Source of the DNA: a virus
Reading direction: 5' to 3' (one strand)
IMG/VR virus record: IMGVR_UViG_3300013126_000140
Span: 1 to 31,858 of that record
DNA length: 31,858 nt
A program made the position numbers and the translations under genes. Within the stretch, counting starts at the first letter, position 1. Every line of letters begins with the position of its first letter. The notes beneath the pieces were generated by a model. The model was not told where the DNA came from. It did not search any database and worked only from the letters and a program-made list of their open reading frames with translations. This document shows, piece after piece, positions 6,658 to 19,229 of the stretch.

Positions 6658-7047
6658 TTATTTATGAAATTGTAAAAGATTTGGTAAATAAAATTTTAAA
6701 TTTGGTATTTTATCACTTACCAAAGATATTGAGATTCTGTTTGATTCCCTGACACCTTTATCTAATACATTACCACTTAAATCATATTGAGTTGTAATTG
6801 GTCCTGAAATTCTCCATCTTACCAAAACTCCGGTATATAAAGAATTTGATAAAATTCTAGTGTATTCGGAATAATTTACTTCGTATATAGTTGCACTTTT
6901 ATCGTTTGTTTTTTGAATAAAATATCGTGTAATCCAACCTCTCTTGTAATCACTATCAGTTGGAGTTGGAAAATGGGTATTTATATCAGAATTCAATATG
7001 AATAATGAATTTATTTTTAAATTTGAATATTTTTTGTTATTATCCAT
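6658..7047 (-). CDS. Probable baseplate-associated protein of unknown function
   Basis: This 129-aa protein begins one base after the hub gene stops. Its segments YKRGWITRYFIQKTND, YTGVLVRWRISGP, the DLSGNVLDKGVRESNRIS loop and a C-terminal IPNLKFYLPNLLQFHK give a beta-rich fold. Its position, in the same run as hub, LysM wedge and tape measure with nearly zero spacing, suggests a baseplate component. A gp25-like wedge is not supported by any motif I can see. It is followed by the dioxygenase gene after a 33-base gap. Confidence 0.6.
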   Translation of the reverse strand: MDNNKKYSNLKINSLFILNSDINTHFPTPTDSDYKRGWITRYFIQKTNDKSATIYEVNYSEYTRILSNSLYTGVLVRWRISGPITTQYDLSGNVLDKGVRESNRISISLVSDKIPNLKFYLPNLLQFHK

Positions 7048-7048
7048 T

Positions 7049-9511
7049 TTATTTTAATTTCATTTTACCACTTACCGAAGTTGTCCACAATCCTTGATCT
7101 AACGTATGTGAAATACCAACAACAGTGAATGCACATTTATCTCTATATTGAGCCGGTAAATCTGCTATTTCAAATAAATCTCCAGTTTTAATACCCGAAA
7201 CGCCATGTATTTTAAAATCAAATGCTATTTCTACTAAAATATTATTTGGAGTTGTTGAATTTTTTAAATTTAGATCTAATTTTCTAAATAGAGTTGAATC
7301 TTGCCATGCACCTACTGCTACGATTTGTTCTAAAGTTGGACTTTCTATAGCAGAGGCAACATTTCCAAATCCAAACATAGAGGTAATTGAATTAATTAAT
7401 ATAACACCAACTGTGTTAAAAAAATCTTTGAATTCACTTTTTGCAACATCTCTATTGATATTCCTATCCTTTATAGTAGGAATAACTGTAGCATGTTTCA
7501 TGAAAAGTTCATAATTTTGTTTTCGTGCTTCCTTTTCGGCTTCTTCAGCATCAGGTTCTTCATCCGGTTCATTGTCTGGGTCTTCAACAGGTTCAATATT
7601 TCGTTCTTGTTGTTCATCAATTAGAGCCTGTTTAAAAGAAGCTATTATATCAATAACTGGATCTGGTTTAGAGGCAAATAATGCACCTGAATCTATTGGC
7701 AAATTACCTTCAGGTGAAGAATCAACAGATATATTACCTTCTCCTGCAGTTCTTTCAGCAATAATCATGTTTTTCATTGCTGCCGGTATTTCAAAAGCAA
7801 ATTGAGAATCTATAAAAGGGCAATCTATACCACTTGAAAAAAATCCAGTTATACCATCTTTATTGGCTTTCCCCTGAAAATTTAAATCAGCTATTTCAAG
7901 TTGATATTTATTTTTATTCTCAGGTCTACGAGATGGTAATTGTACTATTTCAAAATACCAAATTGAGTTTGCTGCAGCAGAAATACCATTTAGTATTTCA
8001 TAGTATATATCTTTAGCAACATAATTAGATTTTTCTAAAACTTCAATAAAAAATTCAAAATTTACATATAAATCTTTTAAATATCCCCATTGCCCTGCCA
8101 AAGCATCAAATGGAACTGTATCTACTGGAAAAAGTGATGTATCTGTCAGTTGTTGTGTTTGTGGAAATTTGAATACATTACCGGCAGGATCTTTTTGTTC
8201 TAAATTAATAGTAGTAATTGGAGCCCCATTTCCACCTAATATAGGACCTACTTGTTGAACCGTTGTTGCTGATAATGCTTGGGCCATTCCAAAATCAGGA
8301 GTATTTCGGTTTGGTATAATTAACTTACTACCATCAATTGAAAACATATATGGATGTGCTCTACAAATAGTATCCCTATATTCTATACCTAAAGGGAAAG
8401 TTGGAACACCATCACCACAAATTGATGCAACTGATTTTGTTTCATATGCAACTTTGTTTAAAATTTCAAAAGCAAGTTCTAAACGAATATATGAATTTTC
8501 ACTAACTAATGGCATTCCTTCAGGTATAGATGCCTCTCCAGAACTAGAATTTCCTCCTTCACCACCCTCACCACCTTCTTGTTGTGATGATTCTACTGCA
8601 GTATCTTCCAATTCACCAATTAAATCTTTTCGAATTTCTTCATCCATATTGATAAAATTGGCTTCACTAATAAATGGAATTCCTCTACTATCTTTTTCTT
8701 GTATTAACTTTTTAACCCTTTCGGTTTTTTTAGCCATTGGTAAACGATTATACATTTGCATAAATAAAGCCAAACCAACATTTGATTCAGCAGTTGATTC
8801 GATTGTTCTATTATCGTATCGTTCACCACCTTCATTTTTTTTGTCATCTTTTTTACCACCACTTCTATGTTGTTGCAAATAAGCTGCAACTTCACCCATC
8901 GATGTCAATTCAACTTTTAAAATATAAGTTTCACCGGTACTAGTACTAAATCCACCATTTGTAATATAACCTAAAAATCCATCATAGGTATAATCAGATG
9001 CAGCTTGTTTTTGTTTTAAATGGTCATAACCATTAAACTTTGCAATTTCACAAGGACTTAAACTAACTCTTTGAGAATATGATTTTTCAGTATTCCATCC
9101 AAATTCTACTAAAACAGTATATCCTGGTTCAAGAAAATATTTCGATAATTCTTCAGCTTGTTTTAAACTAAAACATTTTATCTGAAATTGTGATTTTCGT
9201 GTTAATCCTCCATCACCAAAATCTATACCCATAGATTCAATGACAGGTGATGGTCTGAATCCTCTATCACCTTCCACAAATTGTGGTACACCTGCAAAAT
9301 CAGTACCAATTCTACCCGATTTGTTCGTATCACCATATCTTAAAAAAAATGAATTATCACCATCTGCTGGGATTGATTCCAATACCAATCCGCTTGAAGA
9401 TGACACTCTCATCCAAGCTTGTAATGAGGAAACACTTGCGTTATTTCCTGCTCTTGATTGGATAAGTTCTTTTATTTTTGGATTAAAATACGAATTAAAA
9501 GGAAATAACAT
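7049..9511 (-). CDS. Baseplate hub protein (gp27/tail protein D-like), with large insertions
   Basis: This 820-aa protein begins with a hub-like domain: GLTRKSQFQIKCFSLKQAEE and LSKYFLEPGYTVLVEFGWN (about residues 101-140) match T4-like hub proteins, where a strand is followed by 'eL.kYFl.PG.tVLVEwGW'. The C terminus (GDLFEIADLPAQYRDKCAFT, VVGISHTLDQGLWTTSVSG) is the typical hub barrel end, with the 'v.GisH.ld.GlWtTsv' strand. Between them lie low-complexity stretches: a Glu/Gly/Ser-rich segment near residue 320 and an acidic section near 650 (EPVEDPDNEPDEEPDAEEAE). The hub trimer connects tail tube and spike. The gene follows the LysM wedge gene with a one-base gap. No lysozyme or spike domain is visible. 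Confidence 0.78.
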   Translation of the reverse strand: MLFPFNSYFNPKIKELIQSRAGNNASVSSLQAWMRVSSSSGLVLESIPADGDNSFFLRYGDTNKSGRIGTDFAGVPQFVEGDRGFRPSPVIESMGIDFGDGGLTRKSQFQIKCFSLKQAEELSKYFLEPGYTVLVEFGWNTEKSYSQRVSLSPCEIAKFNGYDHLKQKQAASDYTYDGFLGYITNGGFSTSTGETYILKVELTSMGEVAAYLQQHRSGGKKDDKKNEGGERYDNRTIESTAESNVGLALFMQMYNRLPMAKKTERVKKLIQEKDSRGIPFISEANFINMDEEIRKDLIGELEDTAVESSQQEGGEGGEGGNSSSGEASIPEGMPLVSENSYIRLELAFEILNKVAYETKSVASICGDGVPTFPLGIEYRDTICRAHPYMFSIDGSKLIIPNRNTPDFGMAQALSATTVQQVGPILGGNGAPITTINLEQKDPAGNVFKFPQTQQLTDTSLFPVDTVPFDALAGQWGYLKDLYVNFEFFIEVLEKSNYVAKDIYYEILNGISAAANSIWYFEIVQLPSRRPENKNKYQLEIADLNFQGKANKDGITGFFSSGIDCPFIDSQFAFEIPAAMKNMIIAERTAGEGNISVDSSPEGNLPIDSGALFASKPDPVIDIIASFKQALIDEQQERNIEPVEDPDNEPDEEPDAEEAEKEARKQNYELFMKHATVIPTIKDRNINRDVAKSEFKDFFNTVGVILINSITSMFGFGNVASAIESPTLEQIVAVGAWQDSTLFRKLDLNLKNSTTPNNILVEIAFDFKIHGVSGIKTGDLFEIADLPAQYRDKCAFTVVGISHTLDQGLWTTSVSGKMKLK

Positions 9512-12420: not shown

Positions 12421-14961
12421 TTAAGCAAATTGAGTTCCAAATTTATTATCGGTACTCGTTTCAGTTTTTTTCCTTACAACACTTGTAACCTTTGCACTAT
12501 CCATATATACATCTTTATTTGCTAAAAATGCTGCTTTTAATTCTCGTAATTCTGCAATGACACCTTCCATAGAAACCATCGGAGAACCACCTCCACCACC
12601 CAATGAATCTGCCAATCCTGCTGGATTTTTAGTTGCTATTAAGAAATCATCAGGATGGGTTGATACAACTTGCCCATTTTGAACTACACCATCATCTATC
12701 GATTCACCCGATTCACTTGTTGATGGAGCAGCCTTCCCAAGTAAACCAAACGAATATGTATGAAGTTTATCTCCTATAGCTATCATTGGTTGAATAATAT
12801 ATTCATCTATCAAGCTTGCAAGGGACATAATACCCTCCGTCAAAAAATCTATAAACATAACAATTGGCTTTAGTAAAATTCCTATACCTTTTGCTATGAA
12901 TCCAATAATATCAAATACCAGACCCAATCCCCAAATCAAAAAATCTATTAAATAACCCAGTGGTCCAGAATCTACCATTTCAGCAAATAAATTACCTAAA
13001 GATCGAAATACCTCCATAATAGGTTCTACTGCCTCCATTGTTTTTTCTTTTAATTCTTTAAATTTATTAAACAATGGTTGTAATCTTTCTACAATTTTTT
13101 GAATAGGTGCGACTATCATTTCTAGTATTGCACCACCTACTGCAAATATTGGTCCAACTACTGCCTGAAATACATCATTCATAGCACCAATGACACCAAA
13201 AATTATACTCATTAATGATCCAAAAAATTTCATTATTGGTCTCAGGATTACACCGAAATTTTTCATTTGGTCTAACAAGTTATTCATAATAGTTGAACCA
13301 AGTGGGGCTAACATATCCATAAATCCAGTACCCAAGGATTGAGTTTCATTTTTCAGTGCATCGGTTACTGATTGCATCTCTTGTTGTTTTGCAAGTCTAT
13401 CGGTTTGTGCCTTTAAATCTGCCTCAGTCATTTTTGATATATCACCACCAGCTTCAGCAAGTGCTAACGCAGCTGCTAGTTGTTCTCTGTCTAAGTTACC
13501 AAATCGTTCTCTAATTTTTTGTTGAGTTGCTAGAGATTCGATAGTCATATTACTTGCTTCTGCAAGTTTTTCTTGTTCGAATGAACTGAGTTTTGTAACA
13601 TCACCCAATTTCATTACTTCATCAACCACTGCTTGCTGAGCACCAAGTACATCTTTTGATGCTGCTAATTGTCTTGCTTTACTAAAATTTAAATTTTGGC
13701 CTAACATAGCAGATGCTTCTAATTCAGAAGATATAGATTTTTCAAAATCTAATAAATTATCTGCTACTTTACCTGCTTCTCCAATAGAGGTTCCTAATTT
13801 AGCTGCCTGAACTGCTGCAGATGCTAATTCTTCAGCAGAACCACCAAAGTATTTGTAAGCATATTCGGAATTATCCGCCATATCTTTAATAACCTTATCA
13901 GGTGATACATTTGCCAGTTTTGCCATTTCAGCAGTTTGACCTATTAGTGCTTGAGATTGTTCTGCATTTAGGTCACCGATGTTTTGGAATATTTTATTTA
14001 ATTCTGAAGCTTCTTTAACTGAAACTCCAAAGTTTTTATTTAATACTAAAATAGAACCTAATACGGCTTCAGATGGTTGTTGTAATCCATCAAATGCATT
14101 TGTAAATTCTGCTGCTGCTTTTGCTGCATTTTCGGCACTTACACCTAAATTAGCGAAATCAACATTCGTATTACGAATGTTTTCCTGCATTCCTCTTGTT
14201 TGTGAAACTAATAAACCAGTTTCCTCTCTAAAAACTTTTGCTGCCTGGTCAAGTTCCGAAAATCTCTTTATTGCCATAGCGATTGTCGCCACTACAGCAG
14301 CAACTACTAATAATACTGCACCAATTGCAATTGCAGTTGCAGCTGCACCAGTTGAAAGACCGGCCATTGAACCTCTTAACGCAGTCATAACACTTTGTCC
14401 TTGTCCTAAATTTTTTGCAAAATTTGAAGTGAATTGTTTTGCTGCAACCCCTACTTGATCTTTAAAAATTGAAGAAGCTTTTTTACCAAGTTTGGATAAC
14501 ATACCACCAACAAGGGGAATATTATCAAATGTATCAACCAACCCATCAAAAGCATCACCCATGCTACCTGCTAACTCTTGTGCAGCATCATCTACCTTTT
14601 GTATAGTATCTAATCTTTTTAAATCTATTTGTAATCCTTCATTTGTTAATTGTAAAGCAGCTACCCTGGCTTCTACATCTTTTCTATTTGCATCAGTAAT
14701 ACCTCTTTGGAGATTATTTATTTCCTTATTATTTTTTACAATTTGTTTTTGAACATCTTCAGAATCTTCTAAAGTTTTTACTGAACTTTGTAGATTTTGA
14801 ATATATTTTTTTGTAGCATTACTTATATCATTTGTTGTATTAATTTGGTCTTCCAAATCTTGAATTATTGCACCAGTTATTGATTGAGATATTCTTAACG
14901 CCTCATTGTATTCATTTTGTAATTTTAGTATTTCTTTTTGTTGCTGGGAATTGATTGCCAT
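12421..14961 (-). CDS. Tail tape measure protein
   Basis: This 846-aa protein has a helical coiled-coil N terminus (residues 1-140), then a Gly/Ala-rich hydrophobic span near 205-235 (AIAIGAVLLVVAAVVATIAM). A long helical middle with repeated Ala/Glu-rich helices follows, then a second strongly hydrophobic region (PIVMFIDFLTEGIMSLASLI and neighbours, residues 660-760) and a C-terminal tail. This is the classic tape-measure layout. At roughly 1.5 angstrom per residue it would set a tail of about 125 nm. It lies after the tube, chaperone and 83-aa genes and before the baseplate genes, as expected. A small gap (11 bases) separates it from the 83-aa gene. Confidence 0.88.
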   Translation of the reverse strand: MAINSQQQKEILKLQNEYNEALRISQSITGAIIQDLEDQINTTNDISNATKKYIQNLQSSVKTLEDSEDVQKQIVKNNKEINNLQRGITDANRKDVEARVAALQLTNEGLQIDLKRLDTIQKVDDAAQELAGSMGDAFDGLVDTFDNIPLVGGMLSKLGKKASSIFKDQVGVAAKQFTSNFAKNLGQGQSVMTALRGSMAGLSTGAAATAIAIGAVLLVVAAVVATIAMAIKRFSELDQAAKVFREETGLLVSQTRGMQENIRNTNVDFANLGVSAENAAKAAAEFTNAFDGLQQPSEAVLGSILVLNKNFGVSVKEASELNKIFQNIGDLNAEQSQALIGQTAEMAKLANVSPDKVIKDMADNSEYAYKYFGGSAEELASAAVQAAKLGTSIGEAGKVADNLLDFEKSISSELEASAMLGQNLNFSKARQLAASKDVLGAQQAVVDEVMKLGDVTKLSSFEQEKLAEASNMTIESLATQQKIRERFGNLDREQLAAALALAEAGGDISKMTEADLKAQTDRLAKQQEMQSVTDALKNETQSLGTGFMDMLAPLGSTIMNNLLDQMKNFGVILRPIMKFFGSLMSIIFGVIGAMNDVFQAVVGPIFAVGGAILEMIVAPIQKIVERLQPLFNKFKELKEKTMEAVEPIMEVFRSLGNLFAEMVDSGPLGYLIDFLIWGLGLVFDIIGFIAKGIGILLKPIVMFIDFLTEGIMSLASLIDEYIIQPMIAIGDKLHTYSFGLLGKAAPSTSESGESIDDGVVQNGQVVSTHPDDFLIATKNPAGLADSLGGGGGSPMVSMEGVIAELRELKAAFLANKDVYMDSAKVTSVVRKKTETSTDNKFGTQFA

Positions 14962-14972
14962 TTTTTAAAATC

Positions 14973-15224
14973 CTATCTAATGTTTAAAATAGCTTTGTAT
15001 GTATGAGGAATTCTTTCTCCATTTTTTTGCATTCGTTCTACTTTTTTACGAAGATTTGCCATATCATTATCCAAACTTCTAGCAAGTTTTAAAAAATCAT
15101 CATCTTTTTCTAAATTTGAAACCATTTTTTTTCCAAAAATATAATCAACAACACCTTCTTTCATATCGTGTTTTTTAGATATAAATTCTTTTATTTTATT
15201 TTTTTTTGTTTCAGTAAGTTTCAT
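14973..15224 (-). CDS. Small basic helical protein between tail chaperone and tape measure
   Basis: This 83-aa protein is very lysine-rich and helical (TKKNKIKEFISKKHDMKEGV, LARSLDNDMANLRKKVERMQ). It has an ATATTTAT octamer 27 bases upstream and an AGGG just before the start. It occupies a position where other contractile-tail phages place tape-measure chaperones, but no sequence family is recognised. A helper in tape-measure folding or tube initiation is an inference from position. Confidence 0.62.
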   Translation of the reverse strand: MKLTETKKNKIKEFISKKHDMKEGVVDYIFGKKMVSNLEKDDDFLKLARSLDNDMANLRKKVERMQKNGERIPHTYKAILNIR

Positions 15225-15260: not shown

Positions 15261-15298
15261 AATAAAAAAAAATGTGAGGAGTTTTACCTTCTCACATT
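15261..15298 (-). terminator. Rho-independent terminator after the frameshifted chaperone extension
   Basis: AATGTGAG (15271-15278) pairs with CTCACATT (15291-15298), followed on the minus strand by nine T in a row. The extension frame's stop codon (15284-15286) lies inside the loop, so the transcript ends just after that frame rather than just after the zero-frame stop at 15495. Confidence 0.7.
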
Positions 15299-15517
15299 TA
15301 CATTTGGACTACTTACACCTGATTTAGATTTCTTAGATTGTTTTAAATCTTCTTGTTCTCTTTTTTTAGTATCTATCAATTGTTTGTAGTAGAAATTTCG
15401 TATGTGTATTGGTAATCGATAAACTCCTTCTTGAGTAAATCCATTACCAAAATAACATAATTCAAAAATTTGTTTATGAAGTATAACCGAATAATTACTC
15501 GGAAGGCCAAAAAAACC
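15284..15517 (-). CDS. Out-of-frame extension of the tail assembly chaperone (no start codon; probable frameshift product)
   Basis: A 77-codon open frame sits +1 (equivalently -2) relative to the 251-aa gene. It begins after a TAG at 15518-15520, overlaps the last codons of that gene across a run of seven T, and ends with TAA at 15284. It encodes GFFGLPSNYSVILHKQIFEL, CYFGNGFTQEGVYRLPIHIR, NFYYKQLIDTKKREQEDLKQ and a Ser/Lys-rich tail, which is protein-like and resembles C-terminal parts of tail chaperones. No ATG, GTG or TTG lies near its beginning, so it must be read by ribosomes shifting from the upstream gene. Known precedent: tail chaperone pairs between the major tail protein and tape measure genes are commonly made by programmed frameshifting (lambda G/GT). 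A frameshift mutation or sequencing error is the alternative. Confidence 0.68.
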   Translation of the reverse strand, partial: GFFGLPSNYSVILHKQIFELCYFGNGFTQEGVYRLPIHIRNFYYKQLIDTKKREQEDLKQSKKSKSGVSSPNVNVRR

Positions 15518-16250
15518 CTACGCCCATTGGAATTGAGCGTACCTCCATTTCTCCCGTTTGTGGGTCTTCATATTCAAACTCCATTTTGACATCTGGTTGT
15601 ATTTTTTTAATGTATTCTCTAAATGCTTTAGTATCTCTAGTTAAAAATTGGTTGTTGATAAAATTTGTGATAGAACCAGTATCAGTTTTACCATTTACCG
15701 AGACAATCATGTATCTATATCTAGTTGTCAATTCAGCACCTAAAGCACCTTTGTTTAATCTTTGTAATGATTTAATGTCTGCATCTATCTTCTTCTCATC
15801 ACCATGTGTCAGTAATCTAAATTCTAATTGATTTCCATTTAATGTGGTAAATTTATATCGATTTTCTCGATTTAACAAAGTAGTATCAATATCCTTTACC
15901 TGAACCTTTGATAAATCAACAACTACATCTTCTTTTTCATCTAAATTGTTTGTAAGTTGAATATTATATTCAGGTCCATAACCCAAAATACGAGTTGCTA
16001 ACATAATAGCATTTTTATCACCAAGTAGAATATCATCAACATTGATTTTATTATCTACTATAATAGATTCAAATAGTTTATCTAAAACTATACCTTTTTT
16101 AATTAAATTTTGAGATGTTAAGATTTCTTCTTCTTTTGCAGTCATGTATTTAATTTCTATTTGACCAGAAGAAAGTGGATTTGATTCAGGATAACATAAT
16201 CCTTGAGATGGAAGTGAAATTACTTCAGTTGGAAAATCATAATTTGCCAT
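15495..16250 (-). CDS. T4 gp26-like baseplate/tail assembly chaperone (upstream part of frameshift pair)
   Basis: This 251-aa protein starts MANYDFPTEVISLPSQGLCY followed by PESNPLSSGQIEIKYMTAKE and EEILTSQNLIKKGIVLDKLF. That signature (PTE...LPS.G..YPE.NPLSSG.IE.KYMTA.EE.ILT) is typical of the T4 gp26-type 'baseplate protein' family in T4-like phages. Residues 85-125 include LLGDKNAIMLATRILGYGPEY. The end is IPMGVGFFWPSE and a TAA at 15495. It lies after the tube gene and before the tape measure, where tail chaperones are encoded. A late octamer is 28 bases upstream. The product probably keeps the tape measure soluble and guides tube assembly; a longer form would carry the out-of-frame extension. 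Confidence 0.8.
   Translation of the reverse strand: MANYDFPTEVISLPSQGLCYPESNPLSSGQIEIKYMTAKEEEILTSQNLIKKGIVLDKLFESIIVDNKINVDDILLGDKNAIMLATRILGYGPEYNIQLTNNLDEKEDVVVDLSKVQVKDIDTTLLNRENRYKFTTLNGNQLEFRLLTHGDEKKIDADIKSLQRLNKGALGAELTTRYRYMIVSVNGKTDTGSITNFINNQFLTRDTKAFREYIKKIQPDVKMEFEYEDPQTGEMEVRSIPMGVGFFWPSE
15509..15515 (-). other. Putative frameshift site, run of seven T in GGG TTT TTT TGG
   Basis: In the 251-aa frame the codons are GTA GGG TTT TTT TGG CCT. A +1 slip of tRNA-Phe on the T run, or a -2 slip, moves ribosomes into the downstream open frame with full re-pairing of the Phe anticodon. A second possible +1 site is GAG TAA at the zero-frame stop, with poorer re-pairing. Confidence 0.55.
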
Positions 16251-16359: not shown

Positions 16360-16851
16360 TTAGAATTCCAAGATTGCGTAATCGTAAGAAAGTGTTAATT
16401 CAATTGTAGCAGGGTCGGTACCAGTTGCCCAATCTAAATCACCAAAGTTAGCTTGTGTAATAAAAGCACCTTTCAATGTCCATTGTTCGATTTTATCACC
16501 TACTGGTCCTAACATATAACATTGAATATCTTTTTTATACATATCAGCGTATCCATTTCTACCAGTTAATGATTCATGAGATAAACGAACCCACTCCATT
16601 ACTGCCTGTGCTCCTGAAGGAACGATTGGGTCATAAAGAGTCATTGTAATATCTTGCCACTCACCTTTACCTTTGAGTTGTCTTTTTACGTTGATGTGAT
16701 CCAAAGTAACCTTTTCGAATTGAATTGTGGGTCTTTGAGATGCTTTTATTAAATATGAAGGAATACCACCTACTTCGAAGATGAAGCGGTTCTTCATCTT
16801 CGGTTCGAAATTGGTATAGAACATATCGTTAAATTCTAATACTTCTGCCAT
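16360..16851 (-). CDS. Tail tube protein (T4 gp19-like)
   Basis: At 163 aa this matches T4 gp19 (163 aa) in length. It has the family pattern: KMKNRFIFEVGGIPSYLIKA at 18-37, RPTIQFEKVTLDHINVKRQL, GKGEWQDITMTLYDPIVPSG at 61-80, AVMEWVRLSHESLTGRNGYA, and GAFITQANFGDLDW toward the end, with a final SYDYAILEF strand. The protein stacks as hexameric rings that form the inner tube of the contractile tail. TAGGAGA lies about 10 bases ahead of the ATG. It has its own terminator and late octamer, consistent with a high-copy virion protein transcribed as a separate unit. Confidence 0.95.
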   Translation of the reverse strand: MAEVLEFNDMFYTNFEPKMKNRFIFEVGGIPSYLIKASQRPTIQFEKVTLDHINVKRQLKGKGEWQDITMTLYDPIVPSGAQAVMEWVRLSHESLTGRNGYADMYKKDIQCYMLGPVGDKIEQWTLKGAFITQANFGDLDWATGTDPATIELTLSYDYAILEF

Positions 16852-16904: not shown

Positions 16905-19229
16905 TTATGAGGTGAATGATGCACCAGTTGGTAAGATATTGAAATCTAACACGATGAATTCAGCAGTTCTTGTTGGTTGTAAGAAAATCTGTCCAGCCAA
17001 GATGTTTCTATCGATTACATCAGGTGTATTGTTAGTTTCATCCATCACTACTCTGAATGCAAATAAACCTTGTCTTTGTTGGATTCCTTCTAAGTAAGGA
17101 TTTACTGTATTCAAGAATCTTGAACGAGTTTGTGATGTATTTTGTTCAAATACCAAGTATCTTGAAGTAGATGCGATGTATTTCTTAACTTTAATCAACA
17201 ATCTTCTAACATTGATTCTATCTAACGCAGATGCTCTATCTTGAAGAGTTTTCTGTCCAAATGCTACAATACCTTCTCCAGGGAATTGAGCGATTGGGTT
17301 TACTTTGTTTTCATAAAGAGTATCTCTTTCAGCATGAGTCAATCTATTCAATACACTAACTGCACCAGTGATACCACCTCTATTCAAACCAGCAGGAGCA
17401 AACCATTCTGCTGCAATAGCATCATTGGCTGCGTAAATTCCTGGCATCAATACTGATGGTGGGACAATTGTTAATTTGTTTGTTCTCGAATCAATTGTTT
17501 TAACCCAAGGGTAGTATGAACCTACATAGTTAGAATCTACACTTTGTGCTTGTAATGTTACTAAATCAATTGAATCATCGTAATCACTTAGTTCACCGAT
17601 ATAGAAAGCATCCTCTCTAGCTTCTACCATATCAACAATCTTATCAAATACATAAGAGTGTAATCTTCTAACAACTCCAGGTGCAGCTACCAAGTTGATA
17701 TCAAAATCATCAGGATTAGATACTGCATTAATCGCTTTTACATAAGCAACTGAACCACTTGTTGTAGGATTAGCTAAGTTAAATCCTTGTGAGTTACCAG
17801 AACCCCATTCAGTATCATTATTTTTTGCTAAAGCATGTTTTACGGTTGGAGTTATTCCATCAAATCCACCTTGGAATCCTACTGTAAATTGTCTTTTTGC
17901 AACATCAGTAGTGTTTGACCCAGTCAACAAATAATTAAATGGTGCATCATCAAATGTGAAACTTGTATTTGAACCAGTACTAGCGTTATTTGGAATTGGT
18001 GCCAAGAAATAATTATTATCTACTTTTACAATTGGAGTTTCCAAATCAATACCTGAATATCTAAATGTGGATGATGCAGTATTATCAACAGAAGAAGTTG
18101 AGAAAACGATTGCAGGAGTTATTGAATCATTTCCTCTAATTGGAGAGTAATATGATTCATGTCCAAATGGACCTGCTGTAATTGGGAAAGAACCTTCTTC
18201 CGAAACTTCTACTCTAACCAATCTTGAACGATTCGTGTAATCACCATTCATTGACATTTTACCATTTCCATCAATAGTAATGTTTTGGTCACCAATTACT
18301 TTTAAGATGTAATTTGGAGATAATGGGTCTAAGTTTACATTATTGTAAGTTTCTAAGATAGATTTTCTTCTATCAGTATCAGAATATCCTCTAATTACAA
18401 CAGAGAAAGTTGCGTAATCAGTCGCATTTGATTCACCAGCTGCTTTTACATTAAAAATTGAAATTTTGTATTCAGTATTAGCGTAAGTACCATCACCTAT
18501 TGTATGGAATCGGAATAACTGATGTGTTTCACCTGAGATTTCTTGTGAAATAATCCAAGGAGTAGATGCAAAAGAACAGTCTTGGTCTGCAAAACTTTGT
18601 TCTCCTAAAGATACTAATGAAACTTCTGAACCAGATGATATATTGAATATTGATGCTGCAGCATTTTCAAAAAATTGAGATACATAAACACCTTTTGAAC
18701 CTCTTGGATTACCGCCAAATACATCTGATAAATCATTTCCAGCTGTATATAAGATAGATGCAGAAATTGCAGTATTGTATGCAGAATCAGAACCACTTAA
18801 TGTGATACTAAATGCAGATGATGATTCTTGTGCATCAATAGAAGCAGTGATAGCATCACCATTACCTGATGTAGTCCAGTTGTGAGTTGATTTTAGAACA
18901 CCAACTAATTTTTCTCCATTTGAACCTGATACTTTAATACCAACAGTTCCTCGTTGAGTATATCCACCGATATGTCCAACACGAACAATAGTTACTGTTC
19001 CAGCTTCTCTTAAATAATTTTGAACCGAGTAACCAGTATAGTATGAACCATCTGGTGTACCAAATATTGATTCAAATTCTGATTGAGTGTTTACTACGGT
19101 TGGAACGAAAGCAGGTCCTTTAACAAAAGGTCCGATAATTGCTGCTCCGATTTCTCCAATACCTTGTGATAAGAAAGATAAGTCATTCTCTCTTGTAAAT
19201 ACACCAGGTGATACAATCTTTTCTGCCAT
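16905..19229 (-). CDS. Contractile tail sheath protein (T4 gp18-like)
   Basis: This 774-aa protein opens KIVSPGVFTRENDLSFLSQG then IGEIGAAIIGPFVKGPAFVP and TQSEFESIFG, the standard sheath N terminus. The C terminus has the conserved ERDTLYENKVNPIAQFPGEG region, VAFGQKTLQDRASALDRINV, RRLLIKVKKYI and the final RTAEFIVLDFNILPTGASF strand. Those C-terminal strands form the inter-subunit mesh of the contracting sheath. The middle (about 120-480) contains Ser/Thr-rich variable domains exposed outside, making it longer than T4 gp18 (659 aa). AAGGAGT precedes the start. It is upstream of the tube gene, the usual order. Confidence 0.96.
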   Translation of the reverse strand: MAEKIVSPGVFTRENDLSFLSQGIGEIGAAIIGPFVKGPAFVPTVVNTQSEFESIFGTPDGSYYTGYSVQNYLREAGTVTIVRVGHIGGYTQRGTVGIKVSGSNGEKLVGVLKSTHNWTTSGNGDAITASIDAQESSSAFSITLSGSDSAYNTAISASILYTAGNDLSDVFGGNPRGSKGVYVSQFFENAAASIFNISSGSEVSLVSLGEQSFADQDCSFASTPWIISQEISGETHQLFRFHTIGDGTYANTEYKISIFNVKAAGESNATDYATFSVVIRGYSDTDRRKSILETYNNVNLDPLSPNYILKVIGDQNITIDGNGKMSMNGDYTNRSRLVRVEVSEEGSFPITAGPFGHESYYSPIRGNDSITPAIVFSTSSVDNTASSTFRYSGIDLETPIVKVDNNYFLAPIPNNASTGSNTSFTFDDAPFNYLLTGSNTTDVAKRQFTVGFQGGFDGITPTVKHALAKNNDTEWGSGNSQGFNLANPTTSGSVAYVKAINAVSNPDDFDINLVAAPGVVRRLHSYVFDKIVDMVEAREDAFYIGELSDYDDSIDLVTLQAQSVDSNYVGSYYPWVKTIDSRTNKLTIVPPSVLMPGIYAANDAIAAEWFAPAGLNRGGITGAVSVLNRLTHAERDTLYENKVNPIAQFPGEGIVAFGQKTLQDRASALDRINVRRLLIKVKKYIASTSRYLVFEQNTSQTRSRFLNTVNPYLEGIQQRQGLFAFRVVMDETNNTPDVIDRNILAGQIFLQPTRTAEFIVLDFNILPTGASFTS

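Follow-up and report, generated by a model that had tools for sequence, protein, structure and literature searches.

A probable programmed +1 frameshift in a T4-type phage tail chaperone gene

Does a tail assembly chaperone gene of a T4-like phage, which stops shortly after a run of seven T, also encode a longer protein through a programmed frameshift, and if so, in which direction would the ribosome slip? The question is raised by a locus in the window, as we call the whole stretch of DNA analysed here (31,858 nucleotides, positions 1 to 31,858 of IMG/VR virus record IMGVR_UViG_3300013126_000140). An initial annotation, made from the letters alone, had proposed that a gp26-type chaperone encoded between the tail tube and tape measure genes is extended, by a +1 or -2 shift on the T run, into a 77-codon open frame lacking a nearby start codon. 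Our analysis of this locus and its relatives, which combines sequence comparison with structure prediction, points to a gene that makes two forms of a T4-type tail chaperone via a programmed +1 frameshift, a reading to which we assign a probability of roughly 0.88.

The features of the locus are collected in Table 1. The 251-aa ORF ends, as described in the initial annotation, in GTA GGG TTT TTT TGG CCT TCC GAG TAA. In the +1 register, 77 codons without a stop run from 15517 to a TAA at 15286-15284, with a TAG at 15520-15518 as the upstream boundary, and the earliest ATG, GTG or TTG in this register is a TTG at codon 47. Mononucleotide shuffling gave a probability of about 0.0009 for an equally long open frame arising by chance; the -1 frame past the site closes after 40 codons. 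The TAA of the extension lies, again as described, inside the loop of an intrinsic terminator, which has a 9-bp stem (15299-15270) followed by a T run (-11.8 kcal/mol). The initial annotation had also remarked that, but for the extension, the roughly 190 bases after the zero-frame stop would be a rare empty stretch. The gap is real, with 270 nt separating the zero-frame stop from the next gene, about 210 nt of which are extension, but it is no one-off, as the window contains other gaps of 273 nt and 180 nt.

Three further observations concern other genes in the window. An 83-aa ORF at 14973-15224 (-), between the extension and the tape measure gene, gave weak coiled-coil-like matches only, and a long ORF at 7049-9511 (-) contains two further in-frame TTT TTT T runs, at codons 55 and 557. 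The 774-aa tail sheath protein (16905-19229, -) aligned over its full length with phrog_23, a profile of 496 positions, and therefore seems to carry extra domains.

Table 1. Positions of the chaperone locus and its neighbours in the window, with the evidence for each feature.
Feature	Position	Strand	Basis
Tail assembly chaperone short form, gp26-type (TAC-N), 251 aa	15495..16250	-	phrog_150 E 8e-9; structure
Putative slip site TTT TTT T, zero frame TTT TTT TGG	15509..15515	-	TTT-Y in 220/220 distinct +1 junctions
Short-form stop TAA, zero frame; 6 codons past the start of the T run	15495..15497	-	
+1-frame extension (TAC-C, 'gp51' C-terminus homologue by profile), including stop TAA	15284..15508	-	conservation, dN/dS, profile match, structure
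Possible stimulator (weak): small stem-loop CCGAGT-AATT-ATTCGG around the zero-frame stop	15487..15502	-	not universal
Intrinsic terminator overlapping the end of the extension	15264..15299	-	extension stop in loop
Tail tube protein (gp19-like), upstream neighbour	16360..16851	-	PF06841 E 1.6e-8; phrog_4542 E 1e-28
Tape measure protein, downstream neighbour	12421..14961	-	phrog_4211 E 7e-7

The short form was identified by a PHROG profile scan, in which its match was to phrog_150, annotated 'baseplate hub'. T4 gp26 and T4 gp51 each match this same profile over most of their length, and because both belong to the phrog_150/PF12322 family, the T4 pair are paralogues. A Pfam scan of the window protein did not reach PF12322; the homologue in phage GXN1 did (E 4e-25). 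We folded the short form and the extension as separate parts. The AlphaFold2 model of the short form (pLDDT 89) matched, in Foldseek, predicted viral proteins labelled 'baseplate hub (assembly)', including that of SP-15 (E 8e-18), and found no match in the PDB. The extension was modelled as three helices (pLDDT 81), for which Foldseek returned no viral match below E 0.001.

To place the arrangement among relatives, we scanned viral contigs, isolate phages and contigs from prokaryote genomes. The viral-contig and phage loci yielded 346 usable copies, reducing to 225 distinct junctions, and the extension was scored at each with an HMM built here. It lies in the +1 frame in 220 of the 225 junctions, or 220 of the 223 that are not cut by a contig end, and so departs from the canonical -1 shift (X XXY YYZ); of the remaining five, three have a -1-frame extension and two are truncated where their contig ends. 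The +1 arrangement spans phages of Flavobacterium (immuto), Microcystis (Mel-JY01), Bacillus (SP-15) and Listeria (LIS04) and is also present in phage GXN1. A search of the viral contigs with SP-15 as query found only SP-15 itself. The gene order of tube, chaperone and tape measure is common to the window, immuto and Mel-JY01. Existing annotation leaves out the extension in immuto and lists it in Mel-JY01 as a hypothetical gene in its own right, and our analysis corrects both. Contigs of bacterial and archaeal metagenome-assembled genomes (MAGs) contributed 14 loci with the arrangement (two being the same junction), with identities down to 33%. Many of the genome-contig matches (L380-L394) come from Bacteroidota MAGs. 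From these contigs, many Bacteroidota phages probably also use the +1 route, and the matches suggest Bacteroidota as the host group of the window phage.

Past the zero-frame stop, the extension has a dN/dS of 0.12 in the +1 frame, compared with 1.3 and 1.8 in the other frames, as estimated from 273 close pairs. (An earlier pN/pS estimate of 0.58 was saturated and is superseded by these close-pair values.) Across the extension region of 128 representatives, the continued zero frame is interrupted by 1129 stops and the -1 frame by 455. The conserved +1 junctions and the low dN/dS together identify the extension as a selected protein segment. A downstream protein signal is thus conserved over the 220 distinct junctions, and no relative has gained or lost a base that joins the frames; neither of the two refuting outcomes named in the initial annotation is thus borne out.

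What is this segment? Scanned alone against Pfam and PHROG, the extension gave nothing useful, and its homology rests on profiles built in this analysis. With hmmsearch, the +1-extension profile found small -1-frame ORFs behind gp26 in KVP40 (6e-8) and HTVC008M (1e-7). In a profile-profile comparison (hhalign) it matched the -1-frame marine 'gp51' at E 3e-7, and this marine protein in turn matched the C-terminus of T4 gp51 at E 3e-6. The direct comparison of the +1 extension with T4 gp51 was weak (E 0.07), so the tie to T4 runs through the marine phages. By these profile matches, the extension is homologous to marine 'gp51' and, via the marine phages, to the T4 gp51 C-terminus. The initial annotation had suggested looking for a single-frame homologue carrying the same tail; none of the surveyed junctions fuses the short form and the extension in one frame, and the tail instead corresponds to the C-terminus of a separate protein, T4 gp51. 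It had missed this occurrence in T4 gp51, as well as the presence of the extension in the -1 frame of other T4-like phages.

These -1-frame extensions follow T TTT TT(C/T/G), just ahead of the gp26 stop, in S-PM2, Syn9, P-SSM2, S-CRM01, HTVC008M and KVP40, and the same arrangement occurs in phiM12, Milchi, Yut3, RL38J1 and AS-zj. In the annotations of these genomes (L186, L187, L188, L191-L198), most of the extensions appear either as a free 'gp51' gene (45-60 aa) or as a hypothetical, and some do not appear at all; cyanophage gp51 has been noted as only ~20% of normal length (PMC3037559). A tree of the short form separates a T4-like group, with the -1 and two-gene members, from a group with all of the +1 members. 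One 595-kb uncultured phage, LR756511.1 (L086, ~6690-6920), has its extension in the -1 frame behind GCG GGT TTT TTC, and sits in the tree beside the deep +1 branches SP-15, LIS04 and GXN1. Because the branches of the tree are long, the order of the frame changes is unsure.

The conserved element at the junction is a zero-frame TTT, as the first or second codon, followed by a pyrimidine. It is present at all 220 of the +1 sites, compared with 17% of other Phe codons in the same genes, and at each of these sites tRNA-Phe can therefore re-pair one base forward. A slip of -2 on the T run would reach the same frame and yield the same two products, with one extra Phe. Mu-like phages make their tail chaperones by such a -2 frameshift, and at TTT TTT T, the sequence at 150 of the 220 sites and in the window, cognate re-pairing at -2 is possible. 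The two directions are separated by natural variants of the site. At TTT CTT T (54 sites), +1 re-pairing is cognate, but -2 re-pairing works only by wobble, with a first-position G.U. At another 14 sites (ten TTC TTT T, three TTT CTA T and one TTC TTT C), which fall at about six separate positions in the tree, cognate +1 re-pairing is permitted but re-pairing at -2 is impossible. These variants favour the +1 half of the initial proposal over the -2 half and, as far as sequence comparison can decide it, largely settle the question; we consider a -2 slip improbable.

The bases that follow the site are TGG CC, TAC CC or TTC CC. Most of them are constrained by double coding, with Pro in the zero frame and Leu or Gln in the +1 frame, and so they may or may not belong to the signal. 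In the immuto group the site reads CTT TGG C. The codon in the A site is UGG, UAC, UAU, UUC, CGU, AGU or CAC, with no stop or obviously hungry codon among them.

Somewhat less probable again is that initiation of its own, or coupled initiation, yields the extension as a separate small protein, which is how marine 'gp51' and the Mel-JY01 gene are annotated. This does hold for two loci, L369 (1855-2300) and L374 (1855-2211), in which an ATG just past the gp26 stop opens a stand-alone ORF for the extension, and an in-frame ATG lies somewhere ahead of the extension core in 32 of the 128 representatives. However, TTT-Y, which loci with an out-of-frame extension retain, is gone from both of these genomes (TTC CTT TGG in L369 and TTC TTG TAT in L374). 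They are nested inside the +1 clade, making the motif loss secondary, and as they are related to each other this natural control amounts to one event. Nor is the position of a start conserved among the 128 representatives: 82 have an ATG, GTG or TTG in the +1 frame ahead of the core and 46 have none, and the window has no such codon until well into the frame. It is at the slip site that the conserved frame begins.

Transcriptional slippage on the T7 run could also join the frames, and T7 is present in most members, but 70 of the 220 sites lack it with their frames unchanged, and at the TTT CTT, TTC TTT and TTT CTA sites no run exceeds 3-4 T, below the known slippage length, which rules this explanation out. 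A sequencing or assembly error in the T run, although homopolymers are error-prone, is refuted by the agreement of hundreds of contigs and isolate genomes, some without a homopolymer, and is excluded by the conserved junctions and selection described above.

If ribosomes shift +1 at these sites, they might be helped by a stimulator in the RNA. An upstream Shine-Dalgarno-like element showed no enrichment relative to other positions. A universal RNA structure was rejected, as the 60 nt downstream exceeded shuffled sequences in stability only slightly, with a mean z of -1.1 compared with -0.5 in controls. A covarying GC stem, stronger than the one in the window, was confined to one other subclade (L330, L332, L352, L080 and their relatives). 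It follows directly on TTTTTTTGGCC(A/T), past the CCA/CCT codon, and has 6 bp, three compensated pairs and 98.5% of cells paired, with the zero-frame stop inside the stem-loop. The small stem-loop of the window (Table 1) is a possible, weak candidate for a stimulator.

We infer the following course of events, including the occurrence, direction and rate of the shift and the roles of both products. Translation would mostly end at the TAA and release the gp26-like short form of 251 aa (TAC-N). A minority of ribosomes would slip +1 with the P-site tRNA-Phe on UUU-Y and UGG (or UAC, UUC) in the A site; in the window, this tRNA would slip from TTT to TTT. Having read past the zero-frame stop, the slipped ribosomes would attach ~74 further residues, so that the gp51-like long form (TAC-NC) would measure ~321 aa. 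If lambda gpG/gpGT is a guide, few long and many short forms may serve the tape measure protein, with the short form coating it and the long form recruiting tube subunits. The comparative data strongly support the proposal that the gp26-type chaperone encoded between tube and tape measure has a long form made by frameshifting, with conservation, selection and neighbouring genes in agreement.

Beyond this locus, the sites may define a widespread class of phage +1 frameshifts, probably in Bacteroidota phages and also in phages of Gram-positive hosts. Such a class would rely on UUU-Y by itself, ahead of a sense codon, would dispense with a stop codon, a Shine-Dalgarno stimulator and a universal RNA structure, and would have been exchanged with -1 shifting and gene duplication within one homologous family; we lean towards this broader view, with clearly less confidence than we have in the +1 frameshift itself. 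The set provides hundreds of naturally mutated versions of a bacterial +1 site at which a stop codon and a Shine-Dalgarno signal would both be dispensable, and is thus a good system in which to ask what makes +1 shifting efficient.

Tail chaperones made by frameshifting are already known, and lambda gpG/gpGT and its relatives reportedly arise by a -1 frameshift (Xu, Hendrix & Duda 2004; reviewed in PMC5009743). The lambda gene gives a short and a long chaperone through a shift near its 3' end, as the gene in the window would; the likeness is one of arrangement, the shift being -1 in lambda and probably +1 here. The window gene also shares with G/GT-type genes its position between the tube and tape measure genes and a conserved out-of-frame extension at a 3' slippery site. 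T4 has long been listed as an exception to frameshift-made tail chaperones, and a review describes G-T frameshifting as conserved 'except T4' (PMC5009743). According to papers citing Vladimirov et al. 2022 (Vladimirov, Gautam & Davidson, Virology 566:9), that work identified the tail chaperones of T4-like phages, some of which have separate short and long genes, as well as poly-T -1 sites in TAC-N genes of T4-like phages (PMC10885494, PMC12846349), so the -1 and two-gene routes were already known. We found no published report of the +1 route, with Vladimirov et al. 2022 represented here by its citing papers, and the +1 route is in this sense a variant within T4-type chaperones without a prior report found. 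T4 gp26 and gp51 belong to the same family as the window protein and share the homologous C-terminal extension, but T4 has two genes where the window has one. In marine T4-like phages the chaperone likewise precedes the tape measure gene, with the extension in the -1 frame there and in the +1 frame in the window lineage. T4 relatives thus have three solutions for one protein pair: two genes, a -1 shift and a +1 shift.

In the direction of the shift, a likeness among tail chaperone genes is to that of the haloarchaeal myovirus HSTV-2, an archaeal virus whose tail locus is a single predicted case described as 'very likely +1' (PMC5009743, PMC8211752). The prfB gene, encoding release factor 2, has a +1 site that reads CTT TGA C or, rarely, TTT TGA (PMC12421855). 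It has UGA in the A site and a Shine-Dalgarno-like stimulator, whereas the chaperone sites have UGG (or UAC, UUC) and no such stimulator. The two would share a +1 slip of the P-site tRNA on a Y-UUU tetranucleotide, and the chaperone sites CTT TGG C and TTT TGG C lie one base away from the prfB site.
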